In this document: one piece after another, positions 9,149 to 22,703 of the stretch
Position numbering within the stretch: the stretch's first letter is position 1
Layout of the letters: each line of letters starts with the position of its first letter
Source: Natrinema caseinilyticum
Lineage (GTDB): Archaea > Halobacteriota > Halobacteria > Halobacteriales > Natrialbaceae
Assembly: GCF_024227435.1 (NCBI RefSeq)
Contig: NZ_CP100445.1
Span: forward strand, 3,159,369 to 3,223,368
Direction: 5' to 3'
Length of the DNA: 64,000 nt
The notes under the pieces: model-generated
Database searches by the model: none
What the model was told of the DNA's origin: nothing
Seen by the model: only the letters and a program-made list of their open reading frames with translations
Program-made: the position numbers and the translations under genes

Positions 9149-10123
9149 TCAGTACCGCCGTTCGTACACCGTCCCCGACTCGCCGACGACGAGCCGTGGC
9201 GACCGGGCCGTCCCGAGCGCGACCGCGTGGAGTTCGTTGTCGGGCCGAAGGCGAACGAGCGGTTCCCAGCCGTCGAAGCTCCGTTCGTAGATCGCACCCG
9301 CCGACGAGACCGCAAGTGCCGTGTCGCGGTTCCGTGCGAGCGCCGCGATCGGTTGCTCGCCGAGTGTCGCACGCGACCAGTTGACGCCGTTGTAGCCGTA
9401 GACGGCCCCGTTACCGCCCGCGACCGTGACGTGCCCGGTGTCGATCGCCGCGACCGCCGCGAAGTCGACGCCCGCGCCATCGATCCCGATTCGGGTCCAG
9501 GTGACTCCGCCGTCGCGGGACTCGAACACCCCGCCGTCCGTGTCGACGACGTAGGCGTACGCGAGCGACGTGAGGTCGACGTCGGTCACGCTCGAGCCGC
9601 TGCCGGGTTTGCCGACGTCGCCCCACTCGACGGTCGCGCCGTGGCGGCGCCCCCGGAGGAGTTCGCCGGAGCTATTGATGGCCGTAACCCGTTCGTCGCC
9701 GGCCAGGCCGGCGGCCGCGATCGCCGTCCAGGAGGTCGTCTTCGCCAGCGGCGCCGAGAAGTCCGCGACGTGGTCGGCGACGACGTCGTACAAGCCGAGC
9801 GCGCCGCTGTCGCCGGCCATCCAGAGCGCCTGCCCGTTGCTCGTGACCGCCGCGGTTCGAAGGCCGTCGCTCGTGTCCGAAAGACCGTTCTCGAGGGCGA
9901 CGGTCCAGTCGCCGCCGTCGCGGGCGAGGACGACACCGTCCTCGCCGACGGCGAAGGCGCCCTCCGCCGTCGAAACGACGTCGTACAGCGTTGCGTCGGT
10001 GGGGACGTCGACCGCGATCCACTCGCTATCGGCCCCGCCGCAACCGGCGAGCGTGACCGTGGCGACCGTAGCGCCGACCGATGCGAGGAGGCGGCGGCGG
10101 CTCGGAACGCGATCGGTCGTCAT
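9149..10123 (-). CDS. Tat-exported lipoprotein with beta-propeller (BNR/YCF48-like) repeats
   Basis: A 324-residue surface lipoprotein. Arg9-Arg11 in VPSRRRLLASVG and the lipobox LAGC (Cys28) give a twin-arginine lipoprotein signal. The rest consists of repeated blades with motifs such as WMAGDSGALGLYDV, GGVFESRDGGVTW and GESGTVYERRY, as in BNR/photosystem-assembly-type propellers. Its ATG overlaps the stop codon of the membrane-protein gene upstream by 4 bases, so the two are probably made together. A clear relative without the signal lies at 21396-22703. Frame upstream of 10123 is shadow of the neighbour. Function unknown. Confidence 0.8.
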   Translation of the reverse strand: MTTDRVPSRRRLLASVGATVATVTLAGCGGADSEWIAVDVPTDATLYDVVSTAEGAFAVGEDGVVLARDGGDWTVALENGLSDTSDGLRTAAVTSNGQALWMAGDSGALGLYDVVADHVADFSAPLAKTTSWTAIAAAGLAGDERVTAINSSGELLRGRRHGATVEWGDVGKPGSGSSVTDVDLTSLAYAYVVDTDGGVFESRDGGVTWTRIGIDGAGVDFAAVAAIDTGHVTVAGGNGAVYGYNGVNWSRATLGEQPIAALARNRDTALAVSSAGAIYERSFDGWEPLVRLRPDNELHAVALGTARSPRLVVGESGTVYERRY

Positions 10124-11658
10124 CGGCCCTCGTTCGTCCGGTCGACGGCCTCTGTCGCTCGAGACGATTCTTCGTTCGGCCGGGCGTCCGGCTCGGTCGA
10201 CCGTGCGTCGGGATCGGCGGACCGTGGGTCGGGAGCCGACCCTCGAGAGGGAGTTTCGACGGTCGCCGGTCCGATCTCGGTGGCCGTCTCGTGTGACTCG
10301 TGGAACTCGCCCGGCGGGGTGAACGCGCCCGGTGCGGATGTCCGCATGAGGATCGCGGAGATGCGAACGACGTAAGCGAACAGCACCGCGAGCGGGCTGA
10401 ACGCCACCGCGAGCGCGACACTCACGAGAACGAGCAACCACCCCTCGAAGGCGACGGGCGGGTAGCCGCTCGCGTAGATCATGATGACGAGCGACGAGAG
10501 CAAGATCGCGGCGGTGCCGCTGTAGGTGATGAGACGCGAGAGTCGCGCGAGTTCCCGCTGGAGGTAGATCGTCGTGAAGTACTGCCGAGTCGCGTCCGCG
10601 GTGACGAACAGTTCCCGAAGCTCCGAGAGCAGGTCCCTGACGCGGTCCGACAGATCTTCGTCGAAGCGTCGGCGGAGCCGTCGTGCCTCGTTCGCGGCAC
10701 CGGCGTAGTCGTGGTCGATCGTCGGCAGAACGACGGCGAACACCGAGTCCGTCTCGCCGGTGAGTTGCGAGGAGAGCCCGCTGGTGTGCTCTCGCGTCCG
10801 CGCTGCGAACCGACAGATCGATTCGAGGGCGGAGATCGGCGTGTCGACGGCCCGCCCGTCACCGACACGGCTGCGCTCGCTGCCGTTCGCGGCGCGATCC
10901 GCCTCTCCGCATTCGGTCGCGAGTTCGTCCGCTCGGCTGCCGAGCGTGCCAGCCAACCGGGCGAGGAAGGGCGCGGGATCGGTCGGGCTGACGCCGTCGC
11001 CCTCGGTCTGGGCCTCGACGCGACTCCGGAACTCCTGGACGCCGTCGATGCGGTCGGTGAGCCGATCGGGTGTGCCGAACAGCCGCGAGATGATCAACTG
11101 GTTGACCGCGACGACGATCGGGATGAACGAGAACAATCCCGCGATCATCGTACTGAACATCGTCGTGACGAACCGGCTCTCCCGGACGCCGATGACGTCG
11201 CTGACGCCGAGGACGAGCGCGAGGACGAAGATGCCGGCGACGAACCCGCCGACGATCGCCCGCCGGTCGCCCTCGAGCAGGAGCCACCGCCGCCCGCGGC
11301 GACGGGACGGCGTATCGGTGAGATACCGCGCCGCGATCCGGCCGCCGGTCCAGAGGATGCGGACGACCGCCGAGAGCGCGGCGACGGTCAGGCGGAGCAC
11401 GTAGTGAACGAGCGAGATGGCGATCGGCGTCTCGTCCCCGGGAGCAGATCCGGCGTCGTCCCGTCGTTCGTCGGCGGTTTCGGTTCCGTCGTCGACGCCG
11501 TGGCTCGAGGGACTCGCGTCGTGATTCGTTTCAGAACTCGATTCGTCCGATCGGGTCGCAGTTCCCTCGCGCGTGGAACCCGAGTCCGGTGGCTCGTTGG
11601 ACGGCGGCGACGAGTCGGAGGTCCGTTCGGCAGCGGAGGGCGATGAATCGTCAGTCAT
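10120..11658 (-). CDS. Uncharacterised four-helix membrane protein with acidic N-terminus
   Basis: A 512-residue protein that I cannot assign to a named family. The first 80 residues are a Ser/Thr/Asp/Glu-rich disordered tail. Then come hydrophobic stretches near residues 85-110, 140-160 (IVGGFVAGIFVLALVLGVSD), 170-195, and a pair near 375-445. Between the second and third pairs lies a hydrophilic region of about 180 residues. A second disordered Asp/Arg/Glu tail ends the protein. The 4-base overlap with the propeller lipoprotein suggests a membrane/exterior complex made from one message. Confidence 0.75.
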   Translation of the reverse strand: MTDDSSPSAAERTSDSSPPSNEPPDSGSTREGTATRSDESSSETNHDASPSSHGVDDGTETADERRDDAGSAPGDETPIAISLVHYVLRLTVAALSAVVRILWTGGRIAARYLTDTPSRRRGRRWLLLEGDRRAIVGGFVAGIFVLALVLGVSDVIGVRESRFVTTMFSTMIAGLFSFIPIVVAVNQLIISRLFGTPDRLTDRIDGVQEFRSRVEAQTEGDGVSPTDPAPFLARLAGTLGSRADELATECGEADRAANGSERSRVGDGRAVDTPISALESICRFAARTREHTSGLSSQLTGETDSVFAVVLPTIDHDYAGAANEARRLRRRFDEDLSDRVRDLLSELRELFVTADATRQYFTTIYLQRELARLSRLITYSGTAAILLSSLVIMIYASGYPPVAFEGWLLVLVSVALAVAFSPLAVLFAYVVRISAILMRTSAPGAFTPPGEFHESHETATEIGPATVETPSRGSAPDPRSADPDARSTEPDARPNEESSRATEAVDRTNEGR

Positions 11659-11685: not shown

Positions 11686-12699
11686 TCAGAGGCCATTGGA
11701 GACGGCCTCGAGGAGACGGATCGAGAGCAACAGGAGCGCGGTCAGGACGACGACCCGCCGGATGATGGCGCCCCGCGTGGTCCTGATCCGCGAGCGATCC
11801 GACGGATGAAACCCGACGGTCCAGAGCGTGGCGATCGCCCCGACGTTGATCGCGATGACGTTGACCGCGACGACGACGAGCGAACCGAGGACCGCCGCGG
11901 GTTCGCCCCAGGCGACGCCGACGCCGACGACGCCGATCGGCGGCATGATCGCCGCCGCGATCATCACGCCGATGAGGTCCGTGATGCCCGTCGTCGCCAT
12001 TCCCAGTCCGCCGGCGATGCCCGAACAGACCGCGACGGTGACGAGCAACGACGGCGGCAAGCCGTGGCTGCCGAGTCCGAGACTCGCCTCGAGATCGACC
12101 GCGCCCGTGATGACCGTCGACGTTCGTGCGAACACCGCGAACGCGAGGGCGCTCGTCGTGGCGACGCCGATTCCGAGGACCTGGTGTTTGACGCCGCGGA
12201 CGAACAGTCGTCGCTCGTCGAGGACGGTCGCGGCACTCGAGGCCATCGCCGGCCCGAGCAACGGCGCGATTACCATCGCACCGACCAGGACCGCAAGCGA
12301 GTTCAGGAGGACGCCGGTCGTGGCGACGACGCCGCTGATCGCCGTCATCGCTGCGAAGATGACGAGCGAGGGCAACTGTGACTGGGCTTTCGACCGCAAT
12401 TCGCTTCGAGAGATCCGCTCGAACGAGAGCCACTCGCGACGGCCGTCGGGCACCGAACTGTCCCACCCCGTCCCAACGATCGCCATCGGTTCCTCGACGA
12501 CGATCGCCACGTCGCCCTCGACCGACTCCAGATCGTCCTCGAGCGGTTCCACTGCGTGTGCGGGCGTGGGTACCGTGATCGTTCGGCTCTCGCCGGTGGT
12601 GTGGTCGGTGAGGCTGTACTCGAGATCGTGGCGGTCGATGATCGCCGTGATCTCGTCCGTACTCGACTGCGATGAAGTGATCACCGTCAGCAGACGCAT
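11686..12699 (-). CDS. DUF389/TIGR00341-family membrane protein
   Basis: A 337-residue protein with an N-terminal soluble ferredoxin-like domain of about 110 residues (MRLLTVITSSQSSTDEI) followed by about six membrane segments. The segments contain GVLLNSLAVLVGAMVIAPLL and MATTGITDLIGVMIAAAIMP, which are hallmarks of the DUF389 family. No biochemical role is established for that family. The frame is open to a GTG at 12753 that overlaps the stop of the zinc-ribbon gene upstream, but relatives begin with MRL-like residues, so the ATG at 12699 is preferred. It probably shares a transcript with its upstream neighbour. Confidence 0.85.
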   Translation of the reverse strand: MRLLTVITSSQSSTDEITAIIDRHDLEYSLTDHTTGESRTITVPTPAHAVEPLEDDLESVEGDVAIVVEEPMAIVGTGWDSSVPDGRREWLSFERISRSELRSKAQSQLPSLVIFAAMTAISGVVATTGVLLNSLAVLVGAMVIAPLLGPAMASSAATVLDERRLFVRGVKHQVLGIGVATTSALAFAVFARTSTVITGAVDLEASLGLGSHGLPPSLLVTVAVCSGIAGGLGMATTGITDLIGVMIAAAIMPPIGVVGVGVAWGEPAAVLGSLVVVAVNVIAINVGAIATLWTVGFHPSDRSRIRTTRGAIIRRVVVLTALLLLSIRLLEAVSNGL

Positions 12700-12749
12700 A
12701 TTCGACGTTTCCGTGAGACGTCCGGACCGGCGGGACCTGTCGCGATCGA

Positions 12750-13316
12750 TCACAGTAGTTCGAGCGCATCGGTGTCTGGGGTTGGATCGTCGGGGAAGGT
12801 TTGGGCGAACAGCGAGCGGACGGTTTCGCGGATCGTCTCGAGACGGTCGTCTCCGGTATCGTCACACGATCCACCGCAGCGGCCGACCGGTCCGTCGGGT
12901 CCTACGGCGTAGGTCAACCGACCGCTACAGCCCGGACACCGCGGTTCGGCGTGGGACGTCATCCAGTCCACGTCGAACCCGTCCCGAGCCAACCGTTCGC
13001 CGAGCGCGAACCAGACGATGAGGTCGCGTTCCTGGCGCCCGCTCGCCCGCCGCTTGAGCCGGCCGATTGCGAGCGCAGCGCGACGGGAGAGTTCGTCGTT
13101 CGGATCGGTGTGTCGACGGTGACACCGCCGAAAGTAGGTCGTCAGGGCGCGCCTCGAGGACCGTCGCTTTCCCATGGTAAGCGGTGCATCGAGGCTCGCG
13201 TTCGGCGAGAGGTCGTCGGACTGTGGAACGCGCTCCGGACGACCCTGTTCGTCGTAGTGAGCCTCTCGTGAAAGAGAGGCTCCGCTGGTCGGACAGAATG
13301 CGTATTCACCAATCAT
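12750..13316 (-). CDS. Uncharacterised haloarchaeal zinc-ribbon protein
   Basis: A 188-residue protein (141 if translation begins at MGKRRSSRR, position 13175). I do not recognise the family. The middle is an Arg-rich helical segment (RRALTTYFRRCHRRHTD and SRRAALAIGRLKRRASGRQE) and the C-terminal third has a probable zinc ribbon with CPGC and, 18 residues later, CGGSC. A TATA-like TTTATAC at 13379-13385 on this strand lies about 65 bases before the upstream ATG, which supports the longer start. The stop codon overlaps a possible GTG start of the DUF389 gene, consistent with an operon. Confidence 0.6.
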   Translation of the reverse strand: MIGEYAFCPTSGASLSREAHYDEQGRPERVPQSDDLSPNASLDAPLTMGKRRSSRRALTTYFRRCHRRHTDPNDELSRRAALAIGRLKRRASGRQERDLIVWFALGERLARDGFDVDWMTSHAEPRCPGCSGRLTYAVGPDGPVGRCGGSCDDTGDDRLETIRETVRSLFAQTFPDDPTPDTDALELL

Positions 13317-13523
13317 TGTTGGAGGTCGATCGAACCGTCAGTGCGGTCCGACCGGGCACCTCGGCTAGCAGTGCCAGTGGTATAAACTGACACAATACTG
13401 AGAGTGTCTACAATAAAGATACGGACCCGTAAGGCGCTCTAGACGTGCGTTTCAGATATTTAGTGCGACAATGTTATGAATATAGACACCTTATGAGTGG
13501 GGAGTACCAACGGCGGATGCGTC

Positions 13524-13967
13524 ATGTCACGTACTGATCTCGCAGCCATCGATCCGACCGATCGCGCGCCGTGGCACTGGTACGTCCTCATCGGCTATCC
13601 CGTCTTGAGCCTGCTCGGAATCGTTTCGCTCGCTCGACTCACCGGCGGCGGTTCGGTTCTGGCGACTGGCTTCGGCAGCATCGCCCTCCTGATCGTCGTC
13701 ACTGCAGTGGGCGCCGTCACGTTGCCCGCGATCTGGCGCGACGTGGACGTCGTCGCAGACGAAATCGACTCGTGGAATCCCGATCGGGAGATATACGTCG
13801 GCGCGGCAGTCGCTGCTCCGTTGATTCTCGGCGTCCTCTCCGGGCTGGCCGCCGGATTCGGCATCGCGATCGCGCTGACGGTCGTCGCGTTCCTGCTCTC
13901 GTCACTGACGGTCTGTCTCGCTTACCTCTACAATCGACACCGCGAGATAGGTCTCCTGACCCGCTGA
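13524..13967 (+). CDS. Small four-segment membrane protein
   Basis: A 147-residue protein with hydrophobic stretches at roughly residues 20-40, 46-68, 90-112 and 113-135, a Trp-rich N-terminus (RAPWHWYVLIGYPVL) and a short basic tail. No conserved motif is recognised. An in-frame ATG at 13497 would add nine residues. It stands alone, divergent from the zinc-ribbon gene, with AT-rich DNA before it (13380-13500) that also holds a small inverted repeat GACAC/GTGTC at 13389-13408. Confidence 0.65.
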   Translation: MSRTDLAAIDPTDRAPWHWYVLIGYPVLSLLGIVSLARLTGGGSVLATGFGSIALLIVVTAVGAVTLPAIWRDVDVVADEIDSWNPDREIYVGAAVAAPLILGVLSGLAAGFGIAIALTVVAFLLSSLTVCLAYLYNRHREIGLLTR

Positions 13968-14294: not shown

Positions 14295-15797
14295 ATGCTC
14301 TCAGCGATACACCTCATCACCGACACGTCAGGCCCCGTGCTGGCAGCGGGGGGACCGCTTTCCACCCTGCTCCCGCAGGCGATCGATCACGGGCCCGTCC
14401 TTCCGGCACAACTCTCGACCGTTCGGCCGACCGGTTCGGGAATCGCCCCCAACGGCGGCGGGTTCGGGTACGCGGCCCGGCTCGTCGGCGTGCTCGGTGC
14501 GCTCTTGCTGGGAGTCCTCTCCGGAGCGATCATCGCGTTTCGGATGGCCTGGGACACCTGGTGGGCGCTCGTCCTCGGCTTTACCATAACCGGGGCCGTC
14601 CAGGAGTTCGTCTCCGAAGACCGCCTCAGCGACTACATCGGCGACGACGGCTGGCGAGAGATCGGCTACGGGACCCTCTTCGGCGCCTCGTCGTCGAGTT
14701 GTTCGTTCTCGGCGGTCGCGACGACACGGACGCTGTTCACCAAAGGTGCCTCGGCCGCGGCCAGCCTGGGCGCGTTCCAGTTCGCGAGCACGGATCTCGT
14801 CCTCGAGCTCGCCCTCGTCGTCACGGTCCTGCTCGGCTGGCAGTTCGCCGCCGCCGAAATCGTCGGCGGGCTGGTCGCCGTCGCCGTGATCGCGGTCGTC
14901 TATCGACGGTTCGTCCCCAACTCCTGGGTCGAACGCGCGCGTGAACACGCGAAGGCGCTCGAGGAGACCGAGTGTGCGACCTGTGGAGTGGCCGCCGACC
15001 CGACCGCCGACGAGACGGTGTCGAAGGTGGTCGACGGCGAGCGGCGGTACTTCTGCTGTGGCGGCTGTCGCGGTGCCTACGATCCCAACGACCGGGACGC
15101 GGTCACCGCCGGCCCGGAGCTTCTGTCGGGCGATCGGTGGCGATCGGCGACCGCCAACGCGATCCGCGAGTGGGACATGCTGTGGCGGGATATCGCCCTC
15201 GGCTTCGTCATCGCCGGACTGCTGGCCGCGCTCGTTCCCACCGCGTGGTGGACGGCTCTCTTCGGGGTCGGCGCAGACGGGAGTCTGACCCGAACCGTCT
15301 CGAACGTCGTCATCGGGGCCGTCGTCGGGGTGGTGACCTTCCTCTGTTCGGTCGGCAACGTCCCCTTCGCGGTCGTCCTCTGGCAGAACGGCGTCTCCTT
15401 CGGCGGCGTCCTCGCGTTCATCTTCGCGGACCTGCTGATCCTACCGCTGGTCCGGACCTATCGGCGCTACTACGGTACCCGCATGGCCGCCGTGATCTTC
15501 GTCGCGTTCTTCCTCGCGGCCGTCGTAGCGGGCCTCGTCGTGGAACTGCTCTTCGGCGGCCTCGGCCTCGTCCCGCCCCACACCACGGGTGGTGGCTCGG
15601 TCTCCGGAGCCTACACGGCCCTCCTCAACGTCGTCGCCGCCCCGATCCTCGCGATCCAGATCTACGTCGCCCTCGAACCGGAACAGCGCGTCCGAATCGG
15701 TACCCGACTCGCGCCCCACGTCGCCGGCGTGATCTACCACGCCCACTCGCTCGTCGAGCGGATCGCATACGCGCTCGAGGATCGCGGGCTCGAGTGA
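14295..15797 (+). CDS. ArsP/UPF0718-type permease with internal TRASH/YHS-like metal domain
   Basis: A 500-residue membrane protein made of two homologous permease halves joined by a soluble insert. Both halves carry the family's small-residue motif: SSSCSFSAVATTRTLFTKGA in the first and FLCSVGNVPFAVVLWQNGVS in the second. The permease family (COG0701) includes ArsP, an organoarsenical exporter. The insert near residues 230-260 has CATCG and, about 22 residues on, FCCGGCRGAY, a Cys pattern like TRASH or YHS domains that bind heavy metals. An upstream ATG at 14247 is possible, but MLSAIHLITD gives a more natural membrane start. Its role may be metal(loid) or copper handling for the oxidase downstream. 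Confidence 0.8.
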   Translation: MLSAIHLITDTSGPVLAAGGPLSTLLPQAIDHGPVLPAQLSTVRPTGSGIAPNGGGFGYAARLVGVLGALLLGVLSGAIIAFRMAWDTWWALVLGFTITGAVQEFVSEDRLSDYIGDDGWREIGYGTLFGASSSSCSFSAVATTRTLFTKGASAAASLGAFQFASTDLVLELALVVTVLLGWQFAAAEIVGGLVAVAVIAVVYRRFVPNSWVERAREHAKALEETECATCGVAADPTADETVSKVVDGERRYFCCGGCRGAYDPNDRDAVTAGPELLSGDRWRSATANAIREWDMLWRDIALGFVIAGLLAALVPTAWWTALFGVGADGSLTRTVSNVVIGAVVGVVTFLCSVGNVPFAVVLWQNGVSFGGVLAFIFADLLILPLVRTYRRYYGTRMAAVIFVAFFLAAVVAGLVVELLFGGLGLVPPHTTGGGSVSGAYTALLNVVAAPILAIQIYVALEPEQRVRIGTRLAPHVAGVIYHAHSLVERIAYALEDRGLE

Positions 15798-15972
15798 GAT
15801 CGCGGACCGAACCCGGCGATCGTCGGGTGATCCCGACCGGGCGTTCGAACCGGACAGCCACCGCGTCGCCGAGACGCACAGGGTCCACCCGCTCGAGGTA
15901 ACCGTCCACACCCACCCACCGCTCGAGGCCGCCCTCGACACCCAGCCGCTCGAATCCCTCGTCTCAGTATCC

Positions 15973-17403
15973 ATGACACAACCACCGACCGACAGCACCG
16001 AACGGAGCGATCCAGTCCGGCTCGTGTGCCTCGTCGCCCTCGTGGCGAGCCACGGCCTGCTTCGGCTCGCAGAACGCTATCTCCCCGAGTTCCTGTCCGC
16101 GCTCGGATACGGATCGATCGTCGTCGGATCGCTGGTGACGCTCGGCTTCGGCGTCGCCGTCGCCGCGTCCGAACGCTCGAGGAACGTGATCGACCGCACC
16201 TCGCCGACCGACCTCGAGACGGCGGCGACCGCCGTGCTGTCGACGGCCCTCGCCGCGATCGGCCTGTTCGCCTGGGCGGGGTCGCCCACGCTCGATACGC
16301 TGCTTGGAACCCCGCTGTCGGCGCTCGGGTGGCTCGCAACGGGCGTCGTCCTCCTCCAGGCCTGGCACGTCGCCGGCCCCGCACGCGGCCTGTGGCCGAT
16401 CGATACGCGCGCACCAGCGCTTCCCTCGAGGCACTCGAACGCGCCGGGAGCCGAGGGCGCCGACGACCGCGCTGTCCGACGGGCGATCACCGCGGACAGC
16501 CGGACGCGAACCGTCGTCGGTGCGTTCGGAGTGGCCGCCGCAGCGGTGTTCGCGACGGCCGCCGTCGCGAGCGCCGACGCCGTCGGTGCCGGATTCGCGC
16601 TGGTCGCCGCTGCCGGCGCCGCCACCGCGCTCGTCGGTGCGGTCGCGGTGGGAACCGCCCGCGATCGGGCGCCACCGATCGGCGATCGTCTCCAACGCGA
16701 CGGGCGAACGAACGACGGACGATCGACGGACGGGCGAACGGAAACCGGGCAAACGAACGCTGCGCAATTCGACGGAGAGTCGAGGCTCACGGACTTCAGG
16801 AACGCCGTCTCGAGGGTGCCGGATCGCCGGCGCTTTGCCGTCATCGGCGACGCGCTCGTCAGAGTAGCGATCGCGGGGATCGTGCCGTATCTGATCCTCC
16901 TGACCGTCGAGTATCGGTCGATCGGGCTCTCGGTCGGCGCCATTACGCTCGCACCGGCGGCCGTCTTCGGCCTGTTCGTCCTCGCGGAAGCCGGCGCCGC
17001 GGTACTCGGTTCGATGGCGACCCCCGCGCTCGTCGACCGGGTGGATCGCAGAGCGCTCCTGGCGGTCGGGTTGACGGCGCTCTCCTTGCTCCCGATGGCG
17101 CTCGTCGCCGCACCGGCCAGGGTCGGCGTCGTCGCGGCCCTGTTCGGTTTGCTCGGCTGTCGCACCGCGATCGAGCCCCTCCGTCCGACGATCGGATCGA
17201 ACACGCAGGCGAGTCCGGTTCCCGGTCCGCGACTCCCCCAGGAGATTCGAACCGCCGTCCGAATCGCCATCGTTCCCGCGCCGCTGATCGGCGGGATCCT
17301 GTACGCGATCGATCCGCTGGTCGCGTTCACCGGCGCGACGACGGTCGGGCTGCTCGGCGTGCGCGAACTGGGACGGGCGTTCGCCTTCGGACGGCACCGA
17401 TGA
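15973..17403 (+). CDS. MFS-like multispanning transporter
   Basis: A 476-residue protein with about twelve hydrophobic stretches in two groups of six. They are separated by a hydrophilic linker (residues about 235-275) rich in Asn, Asp, Thr and Arg. The pattern fits a Major Facilitator carrier, though signature motifs are weak. The stop codon overlaps the start of the oxidase gene by 4 bases (ATGA), a strong sign of coupled production. In bacteria the MFS protein CcoA supplies copper to haem-copper oxidases; a similar role here is only inferred from position. Confidence 0.7.
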   Translation: MTQPPTDSTERSDPVRLVCLVALVASHGLLRLAERYLPEFLSALGYGSIVVGSLVTLGFGVAVAASERSRNVIDRTSPTDLETAATAVLSTALAAIGLFAWAGSPTLDTLLGTPLSALGWLATGVVLLQAWHVAGPARGLWPIDTRAPALPSRHSNAPGAEGADDRAVRRAITADSRTRTVVGAFGVAAAAVFATAAVASADAVGAGFALVAAAGAATALVGAVAVGTARDRAPPIGDRLQRDGRTNDGRSTDGRTETGQTNAAQFDGESRLTDFRNAVSRVPDRRRFAVIGDALVRVAIAGIVPYLILLTVEYRSIGLSVGAITLAPAAVFGLFVLAEAGAAVLGSMATPALVDRVDRRALLAVGLTALSLLPMALVAAPARVGVVAALFGLLGCRTAIEPLRPTIGSNTQASPVPGPRLPQEIRTAVRIAIVPAPLIGGILYAIDPLVAFTGATTVGLLGVRELGRAFAFGRHR

Positions 17404-18941
17404 CGCGGTCATCGACGCCGGGACGCGCACTCGAGAGCGCCCGAGGCTCGCTCGAGGGCCTCTCGCGCGTCGATCATCGACGGCTCGCCCGCTGGCACCT
17501 CGGCTTCGCGCTGGCGATGGGACTGTGGGGCGGTCTCGATGCGCTGTCGCTCCGAACGGCGCTTCTCACGCCGGCGCTAAACCGCTGGTCGGCGGAGACC
17601 TACAACGCCTTCTTCACGACCCACGGACTGACGATGCTGTTCCTGTTCGTCCTGCCGGCGATCTGGGGGTTCGGGTACGCCGCCGTCCCCCCGCTGATCG
17701 GCGCCGAGCGGACGGCGTTTCCGCGCCTCGGCGTCTGGGCGTTCTGGCTCCAGGTACCGGCGGCGCTCTCGATTCGGGCGGGCACGATCGGCGGCATCCT
17801 CGGGCTGGCCGGACTCGAGCCGGTCGCGAGCGGGTGGACGCTGTATCCGCCGCTGAGCGTACTGTCGCCGAATCCGGCCGTGGACGCCGTCCTCGTCGGG
17901 CTCGTCCTCGTCGCCGTCGGGACGACGGTGACGGCCGGAAATCTCGTCGTCACGATCCTGCGGCGGCGCCGGGTTCGGTGGCTCGACGTGGACACGTTCA
18001 CCTGGACCGTGCTGACGGCCGGCGCGATGACGGTCGTCGCGTTTCCGGTCCTGGCCGTCACCGTCGCGCTGTTGGTCGTCGATCGGTCGGCCGGCACCGC
18101 GTTCGTCGTCGGCGGCGGCGGACCGCTGGTCTGGCAGCACCTGTTCTGGTTCTTCGCCCACCCGCTGGTGTACATCCTCGTGTTGCCGCCGATGGGGATC
18201 GTCAGCCACGTCGTCCCGCGCTTCGCCGGACGGCGGCTGGTCGGCCATCGGACGTCGGTCTATTCGACCCTCGCGATCGGCGTCGTCTCCTTTACCGTCT
18301 GGGCCCACCACATGTTCGTGACGGGCATGAGTCCGGCCGTTCGGACGGTCTTCATGTTCACCACGCTGGCGGTCGCGATCCCGAGTTCGGCCAAGCTCTG
18401 TACCTGGCTCCTGACGCTGTGGGGCGGCGCGATCCGGTACACCGCACCGATGGTCGCAGCCGTCGCCGCCGTCGGCTTCTTCGTCGTCGGCGGCGTCACC
18501 GGCGTCTTCCTCGCCGTCGTCCCGATCAACGCCCGCTACACCGGGACCTACTACGTCGTCGCTCACTTCCACCTGCTGCTCGCCGGATTCGTCGGGCTCG
18601 CCCTCGTCGCCGGTTCCTACTACTGGTTCCCCGTGCTCACCGGCCGGCGACTCGAGTCGGGGCTCGCCCGACTGCACGGGTGGCTGACGATCGTCGGCGT
18701 CGCGGTGACCTTCGGCGCGCTGCTGATCGTCGGCCTCGCCGTCCTTCCGCGACGTGTCGCGACCTATCCGGCGGCGTACGCGCCGCTACACCAGCTCGCA
18801 ACCGTCGGTGCATACGTTATCGCGGCCGGCCAGGTGGTCTTTCTCGCGAACATCTGCCGCTCGATCTGGCTCGGTGACCCCGTCCCTGCAGATCCCTGGC
18901 GCCTCGAGAACGGTCCGTCTCACACACGCGAATGGCGGTAG
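17400..18941 (+). CDS. Haem-copper oxidase subunit I, divergent
   Basis: A 513-residue catalytic subunit of a terminal oxidase. All metal ligands are present: His75 and His391 for the low-spin haem, His254, His303 and His304 for CuB, and His389 for the high-spin haem. Tyr258, the cross-linked Tyr, is present in AHPLVYILVLPPMG. The Glu normally following HP in A1-type enzymes is Leu256, and the A2 Tyr-Ser pair is Phe-Ala, so the usual D-channel end is missing. HHMF and VAHFH motifs show it is an oxidase, not an NO reductase. No CuA-bearing subunit II lies beside it. The ATG overlaps the upstream gene's stop. Confidence 0.88.
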   Translation: MTRSSTPGRALESARGSLEGLSRVDHRRLARWHLGFALAMGLWGGLDALSLRTALLTPALNRWSAETYNAFFTTHGLTMLFLFVLPAIWGFGYAAVPPLIGAERTAFPRLGVWAFWLQVPAALSIRAGTIGGILGLAGLEPVASGWTLYPPLSVLSPNPAVDAVLVGLVLVAVGTTVTAGNLVVTILRRRRVRWLDVDTFTWTVLTAGAMTVVAFPVLAVTVALLVVDRSAGTAFVVGGGGPLVWQHLFWFFAHPLVYILVLPPMGIVSHVVPRFAGRRLVGHRTSVYSTLAIGVVSFTVWAHHMFVTGMSPAVRTVFMFTTLAVAIPSSAKLCTWLLTLWGGAIRYTAPMVAAVAAVGFFVVGGVTGVFLAVVPINARYTGTYYVVAHFHLLLAGFVGLALVAGSYYWFPVLTGRRLESGLARLHGWLTIVGVAVTFGALLIVGLAVLPRRVATYPAAYAPLHQLATVGAYVIAAGQVVFLANICRSIWLGDPVPADPWRLENGPSHTREWR

Positions 18942-19148: not shown

Positions 19149-19475
19149 ATGTCGACTACGACAAGTACCGACGTCGCGCTGATGCTCGTTCAACTGATCG
19201 CGATCACGATCCCCTCAACCGTCGTCCTGATCAAACAGTTACGGCGATCGGATAACCTCCAGTGGCAGTACCGGAAGCTGAGCTTCGGGCTCGTCGCGTC
19301 GTGTATCACGCTGTTGATCACGGCCGCGATCGTCGTCCTCTCGTACTTCATCGCGGGATTGCGACTACCCAACACGCTCAACGCCGGACTGTTACTCGTG
19401 ATCGTCGGTCTGGTGCCCCTGGGGGCGTTCATCGCCGTCCTCTACCGCGAACATCGGAAGGAATACGGCCCCTGA
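19149..19475 (+). CDS. Small three-helix membrane protein
   Basis: A 108-residue hydrophobic protein with segments near residues 8-30, 42-66 and 76-98, linked by a basic loop (KQLRRSDNLQWQYRK) and ending in YREHRKEYGP. No family is recognised. It follows the oxidase gene after 207 bases in the same direction, so it could be an accessory subunit, but nothing in the sequence proves this. Confidence 0.6.
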   Translation: MSTTTSTDVALMLVQLIAITIPSTVVLIKQLRRSDNLQWQYRKLSFGLVASCITLLITAAIVVLSYFIAGLRLPNTLNAGLLLVIVGLVPLGAFIAVLYREHRKEYGP

Positions 19476-19560: not shown

Positions 19561-19974
19561 ATGTCAAATCACACCCCCACGAATTCCGACTGTAGTGACG
19601 AACCGGTCACCGACGACGGTGAGATACTGGGCGCTGACGACAGCGACAAATCGAAACCGGCCGACGTCTCGGACCCCCGTCCCCTGACGAATCTGACCGG
19701 TTTCAAGCGCGATCAACTGTTCGTCATCCGAATGCTCGCGGACCGCAACCCACACGGCCTCGTTATCAAAGACAAACTCGATTGCTACTACGACGAGGAG
19801 ATCAACCAGGGGCGACTCTACCAGAACCTGGGCGAACTCGTCGACGAAGGATACGTCGAGAAGCATCCCCTCGACGGCCGGACCAACGCATACCGACCGA
19901 GCACGCGCGCGAACAGACGCCTTGAGGAACACTACGAGTGGGAGCGGCGCTGTCTCTTTTGCGAGGTCCCGTAA
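19561..19974 (+). CDS. PadR-type winged-helix transcriptional regulator
   Basis: A 137-residue protein whose C-terminal 95 residues form a PadR-like winged helix: LTGFKRDQLFVIRMLADRNP, HGLVIKDKLDCYYDEEIN, then GRLYQNLGELVDEGYVEKHP and DGRTNAYRPS. This set is typical of the haloarchaeal PadR/phiH-repressor-like group. The first 40 residues are acidic and disordered, and the C-terminus ends in CLFCEVP, with two cysteines that might sense redox or metal. It precedes the GDH-like gene by 141 bases in the same direction and may control that operon. Confidence 0.82.
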   Translation: MSNHTPTNSDCSDEPVTDDGEILGADDSDKSKPADVSDPRPLTNLTGFKRDQLFVIRMLADRNPHGLVIKDKLDCYYDEEINQGRLYQNLGELVDEGYVEKHPLDGRTNAYRPSTRANRRLEEHYEWERRCLFCEVP

Positions 19975-20115
19975 GTGCGAATCGTCCCCGGTCGCGTTTG
20001 TGAACGATCACGGACAGCCGCGGGTCGTGGCGGTCTCACCCGGCTGTCTGGATCGAGACGACCGCGTCAGCGACCGACGCAGACGAACCGGTCCGACGAA
20101 CACGAATCCACCAGA

Positions 20116-21399
20116 ATGCCTCCATCCAACGACTCGACGGTCGACGAAGCCAGTCGAACAGATCCGGATCTCGACGCCCCGTGGACGTACGCGACGGCCG
20201 CTGCGCGGCGTCTCGGGGTTCCCGACGATATCGAACAGCGACTCCTGTACCCCACGCACCGCCAGCGAATTACGGTGCCGTTCGAGCGCGACGACGGCTC
20301 CCGCGGCGTCTGCGAAGGCTACCGCGTCCGCCACGACGGTGTTCGCGGCCCCTACGTGGGACCGCACCGATACGACCTCGCGTTGACCGGCAACGACTGT
20401 TCCGGGCTCGCGGCCGCGACGACCGTCAGCGCCGCGATCGCCGACGTCCCGTTCGGCGGTGCAGCGGGCGGAATCGCCGTCGATCCGACGACGCTCTCGC
20501 GGGCCGAGCGGGTCGGTCTCACCCGGTCCTACGCGGCTCGCATCACCGGCCTCGGTGCCGACGAGGACGTCCTCGTCCCCGACGTCGGAACCGACGAACG
20601 CACGATGGCTCGAGTTGCCGATGCCCTCTCCGATCGCGGCGACGGCCCCCGGAACGCGGCCGTCGCGGGGAAACCGCCCGCGCTCGGCGGCCATCGGGAG
20701 ATCACGCGATCGGCCGGCTACAGCGTCGCCCACGTCACGCAAGACGTCCTCGAGACGGATCACGACCGGCCGTTGACCGACGCGACGGTCGCCGTCTACG
20801 GCACGGGACACATCGGCGCGACGGCCGCACGGCTGCTCGAGTTCCGGGGCGCCACCGTGATCGCGATGTGCAACGACGAGGCGGGCCTCACCGCGCCCGA
20901 GAGCGAGAACGGCCTCGACACCGACCTGGTCCCGAGCTACCTCGAGCGGCCGGGCGCGCTCTCGTCGTACGACGAGGGGACGCCGACCGGAACGCAGAAC
21001 GTCCTCGAACGAGACGTCGACGTGTTAGTTCTCGCGGACCCGGTGACTGCAGTAACCGCCGAGAACGCCGACGCGGTTCGGGCCGAACTCGTCGTCGAAG
21101 GTGCCACCGGGAGCGTGACCCCCGGCGGTCAGAGCGTTCTCGAGGACCGGGGCGTCACGGTCGTTCCCGACGTGCTGGCGACGGTCGGCAGGCCCATCGC
21201 GGCCCATCTCGAGTGGATCGGGAGCCTCGGGCGCGACCGGATGAGCGACGCGCGCGTGACGAACGAATTCGGCTACGCGCTCACCGACGCGGTCGAGGAC
21301 GTTCGTGACCGCCGCGAGAGCTGTTCGTTGAGTTGGCGGGAAGCGGCATACAGCGTCGGGCTCTCGCGCGTCGCAGCGGCCCACGAGGTGGTGCAATGA
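20116..21399 (+). CDS. Glu/Leu/Phe/Val dehydrogenase-family protein lacking catalytic lysines
   Basis: A 427-residue protein with the full glutamate-dehydrogenase layout: substrate domain, then a Rossmann domain with GTGHIG near residue 230. The family's three lysines are replaced. RGPYKGG is RGPYVGP (Val81), the TWKCA Lys is Ser105, and GGAKGG is GGAAGG (Ala117). Later motifs also differ: EGANG is EGATG and the ANAGGV loop is ATVGRPI. Active glutamate oxidation is therefore unlikely, and the protein may be a regulatory relative or bind another ligand. The ATG at 20116 is chosen because the upstream frame is Arg-rich. The next gene starts inside its stop codon. Confidence 0.85.
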   Translation: MPPSNDSTVDEASRTDPDLDAPWTYATAAARRLGVPDDIEQRLLYPTHRQRITVPFERDDGSRGVCEGYRVRHDGVRGPYVGPHRYDLALTGNDCSGLAAATTVSAAIADVPFGGAAGGIAVDPTTLSRAERVGLTRSYAARITGLGADEDVLVPDVGTDERTMARVADALSDRGDGPRNAAVAGKPPALGGHREITRSAGYSVAHVTQDVLETDHDRPLTDATVAVYGTGHIGATAARLLEFRGATVIAMCNDEAGLTAPESENGLDTDLVPSYLERPGALSSYDEGTPTGTQNVLERDVDVLVLADPVTAVTAENADAVRAELVVEGATGSVTPGGQSVLEDRGVTVVPDVLATVGRPIAAHLEWIGSLGRDRMSDARVTNEFGYALTDAVEDVRDRRESCSLSWREAAYSVGLSRVAAAHEVVQ

Positions 21400-22703
21400 T
21401 CGACCGCATCGGCGAATCGCTCCGCACCGCCGTCGGCTGGCTCCAGCGCGTCGCCCCGATTCGAGCGGGTCCGGGCGGTGACGAACGAGACCCGGAGGAC
21501 GACGACCGGCCGGACGCGCCGGACGACGAGCAGGAAGCTTCGGACGGCGACGGAGACGACGAAGACGGGCACGACAATGACGACGAAGACGAGCCCGACG
21601 GAGAGGACGCAATACGATCGGACGGCGGCAACCCCGACGCCGACGTGCTCGCCAGTGGGGCGGTCTCGGGCGATGCCAGCTCCTGGCAGCCGGCCGAGTC
21701 GCCGACGTCGCGGACCATCCACGGCGTCGTCCACGGACAGGACGGCCCCTACGCGTGCGGCGAAGGTGGGCTCTTGCTCCATCGCGGGCCCGACGGCTGG
21801 CGCGTCCTTTTGGAGCGGGGACCGGGCGTCGCGGAGAACACGCTTCGATCCATCGCCGCGACCGACGACGGCTGTCGCATCTGGTTCGCCGGCGACAGCG
21901 GCGCGCTCGCCTTTTACGACGTTGCCGACGGCAACCTCAGCGATTACTCCGCGCCGATGGAAAAGACGAGTACCTGGGAATCGATCGCCGTCACCGGTCG
22001 AACCGGCGAGGAACGCGTTCGCATCGCGAACGGCTCCGGCGAGGTCTTCGACTGTCTCGTCGAAGACAGCTGTCCGACGTGGGGCGAGGTCGTCGAACCC
22101 GGTGGCGGCTCGACGATCCCCGGCCTGACGGCCGGTCCGGACGGGTTCTACGCCGTCGACACGAGCGGCGGAGCGTACGTCGAGCCCCGACCCGAGGATC
22201 CACCCGAAAGCGGATCGACGGACCCCGACCTCCGGGACGGCGAACCGGCGGATACGGAGCCCACGGACACCGATCCCTCGGAGGAGTGGAAACGGATCGG
22301 CGTCAGGAACGCGCAGGTCAACTTCCAGGACCTCTGGGCCGGCGACCGATCGGTGTTCATCGCGGGCGCCGACGGGATCGCGTACCGCTACGACCCCCAC
22401 TGTGAGAACTGGACGCCGCTCGCGGTCGGCGAGGGGGCCCTGCAATCGATCCGGTCGACCAGATCGGGCACGATCGCGGTCGCGAACGGCGGTCGGATCT
22501 ACGAACGCGACGAGAGCGTTCGCTGGAACGAACTCGAGACCCCGACGGAACAGTCGCTGCTCGGACTCGCGCTCGCCCGCTCGAGCGCCGACGTCGACGA
22601 AGGGCTGGCGACCACACCGGTCGACGTCGCCGTCGGATCGGGCGGCGTCATCCTAGAGCGTGATCGGACGGACGGCTCGAGTCCGGATAGCGGTCGAACG
22701 TAA
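21396..22703 (+). CDS. Cytoplasmic beta-propeller protein, paralogue of the 9.1-kb lipoprotein
   Basis: A 435-residue protein with no signal peptide. Residues 25-75 are an Asp/Glu-rich disordered tract, followed by propeller blades. WFAGDSGALAFYDV followed by NLSDYSAPMEKTSTWESIAV aligns closely with WMAGDSGALGLYDV...ADFSAPLAKTTSWTAIAA in the lipoprotein at 9149-10123. A second acidic insert (Pro/Asp/Thr-rich) interrupts the middle. The start codon overlaps the GDH-like stop (ATGA), so the two proteins are probably made together and may bind. Function unknown. Confidence 0.8.
   Translation: MIDRIGESLRTAVGWLQRVAPIRAGPGGDERDPEDDDRPDAPDDEQEASDGDGDDEDGHDNDDEDEPDGEDAIRSDGGNPDADVLASGAVSGDASSWQPAESPTSRTIHGVVHGQDGPYACGEGGLLLHRGPDGWRVLLERGPGVAENTLRSIAATDDGCRIWFAGDSGALAFYDVADGNLSDYSAPMEKTSTWESIAVTGRTGEERVRIANGSGEVFDCLVEDSCPTWGEVVEPGGGSTIPGLTAGPDGFYAVDTSGGAYVEPRPEDPPESGSTDPDLRDGEPADTEPTDTDPSEEWKRIGVRNAQVNFQDLWAGDRSVFIAGADGIAYRYDPHCENWTPLAVGEGALQSIRSTRSGTIAVANGGRIYERDESVRWNELETPTEQSLLGLALARSSADVDEGLATTPVDVAVGSGGVILERDRTDGSSPDSGRT

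Follow-up and report, generated by a model that had tools for sequence, protein, structure and literature searches.

The subfamilies of A-type haem-copper oxidases carry distinct active-site motifs, xGHPEVY in A1 and YSHPxVY in A2, according to PMC8361435. In copper transport, the defining feature of the CalT proteins is a pair of conserved motifs, MxxxM and HxxxM (PMC10588857; PMC8406296), and PpoB2 is reported to pass copper to a tyrosinase (PMC2855505). Here we examine a 64,000-nucleotide stretch of Natrinema caseinilyticum DNA (RefSeq assembly GCF_024227435.1, contig NZ_CP100445.1; hereafter the window, G000:C1:3159369-3223368 of a 4.77 Mb host genome in 3 contigs), in which three genes stand in line on the + strand at 14295-18941 and encode an ArsP-type permease, a major facilitator superfamily (MFS) protein and a haem-copper oxidase subunit I of the A lineage without a linked subunit II. 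To our knowledge, the copper route to the CuB site in archaea is not established. The trio is part of a gene block that is real and inherited as a unit, and we hold with about even confidence that this block is a co-inherited haloarchaeal module that would make and serve a stand-alone A-lineage subunit I by means of its own copper-export and assembly kit.

An initial annotation of this DNA had described a same-strand run of an ArsP-like permease with a CxxC/FCCxxC insert, an MFS-like protein and an oxidase, the last two overlapping by 4 bases. All of these features are present in the sequence, the MFS stop and the oxidase start sharing an ATGA at 17400-17403 (+). That annotation also asked whether the three genes travel together elsewhere, and they do. 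Each trio protein was searched against the same 391 genomes of the class; in 37 of them a permease orthologue adjoins the MFS and oxidase genes, the three being consecutive and in the same order, and these genomes represent seven haloarchaeal families (19 in f1, five each in f3 and f8, four in f4, two in f6 and one each in f2 and f9). The window's own clade, here called T1, comprises 18 genomes, all of family f1, with close and always adjacent orthologues of the three proteins (MFS, E<=2.9e-83; oxidase, E<=3.3e-220 and at least 68% identity; permease, E<=2.2e-204). A further 21 loci, called T2, were chosen for having oxidase and permease matches together or an oxidase ranking next; the trio stands in the same order in 19 of the 21, G109 has its permease a few genes downstream instead, and the 13.5-kb stretch searched in G386 yielded no permease. 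The -4 overlap was called in 13/18 T1 and 7/19 T2 trio loci. Identity to the window proteins falls to ~49% for the oxidase and ~21% for the MFS protein across the trio loci, and in G156, G159 and G234 the middle gene was assigned to the MFS by position and alignment (21-26% identity), not by homology search. Gene calls came from a codon-score caller whose starts are approximate; it missed one small gene (c7) in the window and left 2.5 kb of L136 without a call. Genes beyond the block, which served as a local control, vary from locus to locus, and the host genome's seven other oxidase loci all lack these neighbours. The order and adjacency of the trio are more than chance.

The block itself extends well beyond the three genes. 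In the usual T2 order, all on one strand, it runs c7, DUF389, c3, (PpoB2), YCF48-like, (HMA), permease, MFS, oxidase, PadR or others, YCF48-like and c2, the families in brackets being present in some loci; in T1 the first four block genes are inverted relative to T2. Its strict partner is c3, an unnamed membrane protein family (10120-11658, - strand in the window) that is found in 38/39 loci, the remaining locus lying at a contig end with its c3 on another contig. A profile search of the 391 genomes at E<=1.2e-122 recovered c3 in exactly the 39 block genomes and in 0/352 others; the best match outside the block, at 2.8e-96, was to an additional copy within a genome that has the block, and among the other genomes nothing scored better than 5.7e-82. 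At the looser E<=1e-20 the profile matched 368/391 genomes. The pairwise distances of the oxidase, MFS, ArsP, c3 and DUF389 proteins correlate with r of 0.83-0.96, and for each of the 10 pairs 0/500 shuffles gave a value as high. Natrinema zhouii and Haloprofundus salinisoli have the block on plasmids, which fits its patchy spread. The AlphaFold2 model of c3 has a predicted local distance difference test (pLDDT) score of 73.2, and Foldseek found no match to it in the PDB at E<=0.001. One c3 counterpart on a RefSeq plasmid (NZ_CP084883.1, 59020-60495) bears the name “cbb3-type cytochrome c oxidase subunit I”, which no COX1 profile supports. A literature search at the level of titles and abstracts returned no description of this gene block, which does not show its absence from print.

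The oxidase (17400-18941, +; PF00115 COX1, 409.9 bits) belongs to the A lineage. Its best NCBIfam model is TIGR02891 (CtaD), at 500 bits against a cut-off of 670.75, and ccoN scores 39.4 bits against 583.15; the C-family (cbb3) label in the RefSeq annotation of its relatives is rejected by these scores. We placed its residues by motifs in the Paracoccus denitrificans numbering and counted them over all 39 cluster oxidases. The His ligands of haem a, haem a3 and CuB, together with Tyr280, Lys354 and Arg473/474, are kept in 39/39. The K-channel thus has both Lys354 and Tyr280 throughout, with a Ser at the Thr351 position in 39/39 and Ser291 in 35/39, the other four, all T1, having Gly. The D-channel is another matter, and here the clades differ at the residues Asp124, Asn113, Asn131 and Glu278, taken from a list in PMC3084760. 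In T1, the window included, Glu278 is found in 0/18 (Leu in 17, Gln in 1), Asn131 in 0/18 (Gly or Ala in all 18) and Asn113 in 0/18 (Tyr in 18), while Asp124 is retained in 5/18 and lost in 13. T2 oxidases keep Glu278 in 21/21 and Asn131 in 19/21, and all four residues are kept in 11 ordinary haloarchaeal oxidases. The substitution of Glu278 by Leu falls within the HPLVY active-site motif of the window (18159-18173, +), which keeps the CuB His and the cross-link Tyr; the full motif is FAHPLVY in 17/18 T1 oxidases and FAHPQVY in the other, and GHPEVY in 21/21 T2. Judged by these residues, the D-channel is lost in the window's clade and, because of this loss and of the FAHPLVY motif, the T1 oxidase fits neither A1 nor A2. 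In a quick LG+G4 tree T1 stands on a single branch with a support of 100.

A quinol oxidase of the bo3 type was also considered and rejected. Its quinol site, which we take to be R71, D75, H98 and Q101 in CyoB numbering, lacks the equivalents of R71, H98 and Q101 in 39/39 cluster oxidases; an Asp equivalent to D75 is present in 39/39, but also in 10/11 ordinary oxidases. Two further oxidases of the host genome, L139 (G000:C1:2063070-2064410) and L140 (G000:C1:1441963-1443297), are long proteins of 826 and 828 residues in which Tyr280 and the D-channel residues are intact but S291F, T351F and K354M have replaced K-channel positions. Their K-channel looks lost, a mirror image of the window oxidase.

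The middle gene of the trio (15973-17403, +) encodes an MFS-fold transporter-like protein whose Pfam MFS_1 match (E=0.0076) is below cut-off; its AlphaFold2 model (pLDDT 83.1, predicted template modelling score 0.84) has 12 long helices and is a confident MFS fold. Among the Foldseek matches listed against the PDB the best E is 8.9e-07, and VIA Z scores of 26.5-30.2 over at least 340 residues, again among the matches listed, fall to MFS or MFS-like carriers. No substrate can be read from this comparison, because many MFS families are listed at near-equal Foldseek and VIA scores. For this gene, Natrinema and Haloterrigena provide the nearest named relatives. Copper delivery of the CcoA type had been suggested for this protein, and that suggestion fails on the defining motifs: HxxxM occurs in 0/33 and MxxxM in 2/33 of the aligned MFS proteins, and no Met, His or Cys column, the start Met aside, is conserved in half of the 33 rows, the best being His132 in 14/33. 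We reject the CcoA/CalT identity and keep the MFS fold itself. According to PMC10588857, E. coli is without a CcoA orthologue and other MFS proteins are needed there for an active bo3 oxidase; an assembly-linked role is therefore possible for the window MFS protein. The MFS alignment, A1, uses 33/38 loci and omits L105, L110, L113, L117 and L129, and the alignments A2, A3, A4 and A6 use 25/39, 25/38, 21/36 and 30/38 rows. The MFS gene of L110 (G363) gave two separate partial matches and was called short, perhaps through a frameshift in an incomplete assembly.

The permease (14295-15797, +; 500 residues from the ATG at 14295) is of the ArsP_1 family (PF03773, 222.8 bits against a cut-off of 32.3), and its CS motifs at C136 and C351 are invariant in 25/25 aligned orthologues. 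So are Cys 227, 230, 254 and 258 of a TRASH-like, putatively metal-binding insert (14973-15068, +) of the pattern C227xxC230...F253-C254-C255-xx-C258, which has weak matches to PF24273, PF24461 and PF12156, all under cut-off. The closest NCBIfam models of the permease are SO_0444 Cu/Zn efflux and SaoE, for which it scores 67 and 53 bits where the cut-offs are 300 and 325. Elsewhere in the host genome another oxidase with its own COX2 (L142, G000:C1:3308000-3322000) lies near a 264-residue membrane protein and an 811-residue protein; in the latter an N-terminal TRASH-like CxxC...FCCxxC stretch can be seen by eye.

Genes with a copper connection recur in the relatives. A gene of the PpoB2 family (PF09948, “copper chaperone” in Pfam, 149.9 bits) is present in 25/39 loci, and these proteins keep a set of Met and Cys residues in 22-25 of 25. 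An HMA gene occurs in 11/39 loci, once on the opposite strand at the edge, always with MxCxxC (11/11), and in five cases it immediately precedes the permease gene. Both genes are absent from the window's own locus, and the two PF09948 genes of the host genome lie outside it. Of the initial proposal of a copper-supply plus oxidase module, the copper context stands, with PpoB2 and HMA in relatives and the invariant TRASH cysteines, while the CcoA part does not; the trio may supply copper to this oxidase, a step that we infer from protein families and invariant cysteines. In the mechanism that we propose, cytosolic Cu(I) would be collected by the HMA chaperone in those relatives that have it; the ArsP-type permease would then bind it through its TRASH cysteines and export it. 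A membrane chaperone of the PpoB2 type, again in relatives, and the extracytoplasmic YCF48-like propeller could then help to load the CuB site. The MFS protein, presumably made together with the oxidase through the gene overlap, would have a role in assembly or transport and not in CalT-like copper import. The oxidase would reduce O2 at the haem a3-CuB centre with protons arriving by the K-channel; both O2 as the substrate and the assembly roles of the block proteins are presumed. Since the D-channel is gone, T1 enzymes would be K-channel-only, and little or no pumping is expected of them.

Several observations weigh against this reading. No T1 locus (0/18) has HMA, and 5/18 are without PpoB2, the window's locus among them. 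The TRASH Pfam match of the insert, at 20.2 bits, is below its cut-off of 27, and the permease is not oxidase-specific, because ArsP relatives of this clade are also found alone (L158-L160). In the quick tree the T2 oxidases do not form one clade apart from the ordinary ones, and long branches meet. The correlation of distances could reflect plain vertical descent. Finally, 8/11 ordinary haloarchaeal oxidases are also without a CuA motif within ~2.5 kb; the lack of a neighbouring gene is thus no proof that the subunit itself is lacking.

This last point leads to the main rival, in which the orphan subunit I pairs with a CuA subunit II from another locus to form a hybrid oxidase for special conditions, as CcoN4 does. 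The term “orphan”, used in the initial annotation, describes the window correctly: the host genome has eight COX1 and five COX2 genes, every COX2 is beside another COX1 and none is in the window. Nor was a COX2 found within ~8 kb of the block oxidase in 37/37 other cluster genomes examined (G386 left out). A hybrid could nonetheless draw on any of the five host genes, some ordinary haloarchaeal subunit I genes are also without a linked COX2, and orphan CcoN subunits of Pseudomonas aeruginosa replace their counterparts in Cco1 and Cco2 (PMC10790758). But the five COX2 genes all adjoin COX1 genes other than this one, and borrowing would leave the permease, MFS and c3 partners unexplained. His403, which we assume to be part of the subunit I-II interface site, is kept in 21/21 T2 oxidases and is Thr or Asn in 18/18 T1; the neighbouring D404 is replaced by Gly in T1, a change that 4/11 ordinary oxidases share. 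On this evidence we regard a hybrid as rather unlikely, and as more likely for T2 than for T1. Eight ordinary haloarchaeal oxidases (L147-L154) lie beside a membrane protein of 136-173 residues with no CuA motif nearby, and in similar plasmid loci RefSeq annotates a DUF6789 family protein.

The block might instead be a metal-stress module in which the permease, the MFS protein and the chaperones rid the cell of copper or a different soft metal, or buffer it, the oxidase-like protein being a metal-linked oxidase or sensor and not a terminal respiratory oxidase. The SO_0444 and SaoE models closest to the permease, although below cut-off, the HMA and PpoB2 genes nearby, and the patchy distribution with plasmid copies would suit such a role; the full set of haem and CuB ligands, with Tyr280 and Lys354, in 39/39 implies conserved redox chemistry, and we consider the proposal distinctly unlikely. 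It is still less probable that the oxidase of T1 is in decay and has lost its function, as the loss of several channel and interface residues could suggest, for there are no stop codons in 18/18 T1 genes, the proteins have 68-84% identity to that of the window, and all metal ligands are kept. The slimmest chance belongs to a nitric oxide (NO) reductase derived from the A lineage. The lack of a linked CuA subunit and the altered HPxVY motif of T1 are in its favour, but Tyr280 and the three CuB His are kept in 39/39, the genome has a separate 771-residue COX1 homologue, and the T1 HPLVY motif does not match the motifs by which NO reductases are classified, H-x-(Arom)-x-E and HHx(Arom)(Arom)-x17-E, according to PMC3084760.

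The remaining genes of the block flank the trio on both sides. On the - strand of the window lie a YCF48-like propeller (9149-10123; PF14870, 39.5 bits) with an N terminus that by eye is twin-arginine or lipobox-like, a family present in 39/39 loci; a DUF389/TIGR00341 membrane protein (11686-12753; PF04087, 94.1 bits, and TIGR00341 above cut-off; 37/39 loci); and c7 (12750-13316), a protein of 188 residues with CxxC pairs that was taken from the open reading frame list and whose family is in 33/39 loci. Just upstream of the permease on the + strand is the small membrane protein c9 (13497-13967), which is found in 18/18 T1 and 3/21 T2 loci and has no Pfam match above cut-off. Downstream of the oxidase, also on the + strand, are c2, a small membrane protein of 108 residues (19149-19475; family in 18/18 T1 and 18/21 T2 loci), a PadR-family regulator (19561-19974; PF03551, 33.5 bits, above cut-off; 18/18 T1 and 17/21 T2 loci), a glutamate-dehydrogenase-like gene of uncertain start (19975-21399; PF00208/PF02812) and a second propeller, YCF48/HVO_0234-like (21396-22703; PF23366, 30.7 bits, above cut-off). 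The glutamate-dehydrogenase-like gene occurs in 18/18 T1 but 2/21 T2 loci and scores well under the GdhB equivalog cut-off. Six T2 loci (L118, L121, L123, L126, L131 and L134) have a sodium/proton exchanger near the block, five of them with a TrkA_C protein as well.

Returning to the module that we prefer, we put forward as a possible though doubtful extension that the window's clade represents haem-copper enzymes of a new kind, in which an A-lineage subunit I works without CuA subunit or D-channel and would be K-channel-only and non-pumping, with a copper-export and assembly kit of its own (ArsP-TRASH permease, MFS protein, YCF48-like propeller, c2 and c3). If true, a pump with two channels would have reverted in evolution to an enzyme with one. 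T1 offers a natural experiment on the need for the D-channel, because Glu278, Asn131 and Asn113 have been replaced together while the K-channel and the active site are kept, and the comparison of T1, in which the channel is lost, with T2, in which it is kept, makes the question directly testable within one gene block. The block would likewise allow one to test whether an oxidase can work when its customary partner and one of its normal proton routes are missing, and it provides a short list of candidate genes for archaeal copper delivery with a strict co-occurrence partner. Such a module is easily overlooked, because RefSeq gives the name of a cbb3-type subunit I to the oxidase and, in a single record, to c3 as well, although the two are unrelated.

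How, then, does this block compare with the systems already described? With the CcoA/CalT and CcoI/FixI route that serves cbb3 oxidases it shares an MFS protein and an exporter with a metal-binding domain, both linked to an oxidase; but the block MFS protein is without MxxxM and HxxxM, the exporter is of the ArsP type and not a P1B ATPase, and the oxidase is of the A and not of the C lineage. The permease resembles the ArsP_1 permeases, SO_0444 Cu/Zn efflux and SaoE in its family and its two CS motifs, and differs from them in the extra TRASH insert and its sub-cut-off NCBIfam scores. Like the PpoB1-PpoB2 operon of Marinomonas (COG5486), 25/39 block loci have a PF09948 gene beside a copper oxidase gene, although the client in the block would be a haem-copper oxidase and the gene is missing from the window's locus. 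With the A-family oxidases (A1/A2, CtaD/CoxA) the common ground is a full-length COX1 match, the haem and CuB ligands, Tyr280, Lys354 and Arg473/474; what sets the block oxidase apart is the absence of a linked subunit II and, in T1, the replaced D-channel residues and the FAHPLVY motif. The orphan CcoN4 of Pseudomonas aeruginosa is also a lone catalytic haem-copper oxidase subunit gene in a cluster of its own but, unlike the window oxidase, it is of the C family, has no permease, MFS or c3 partners and is known to enter hybrid complexes.

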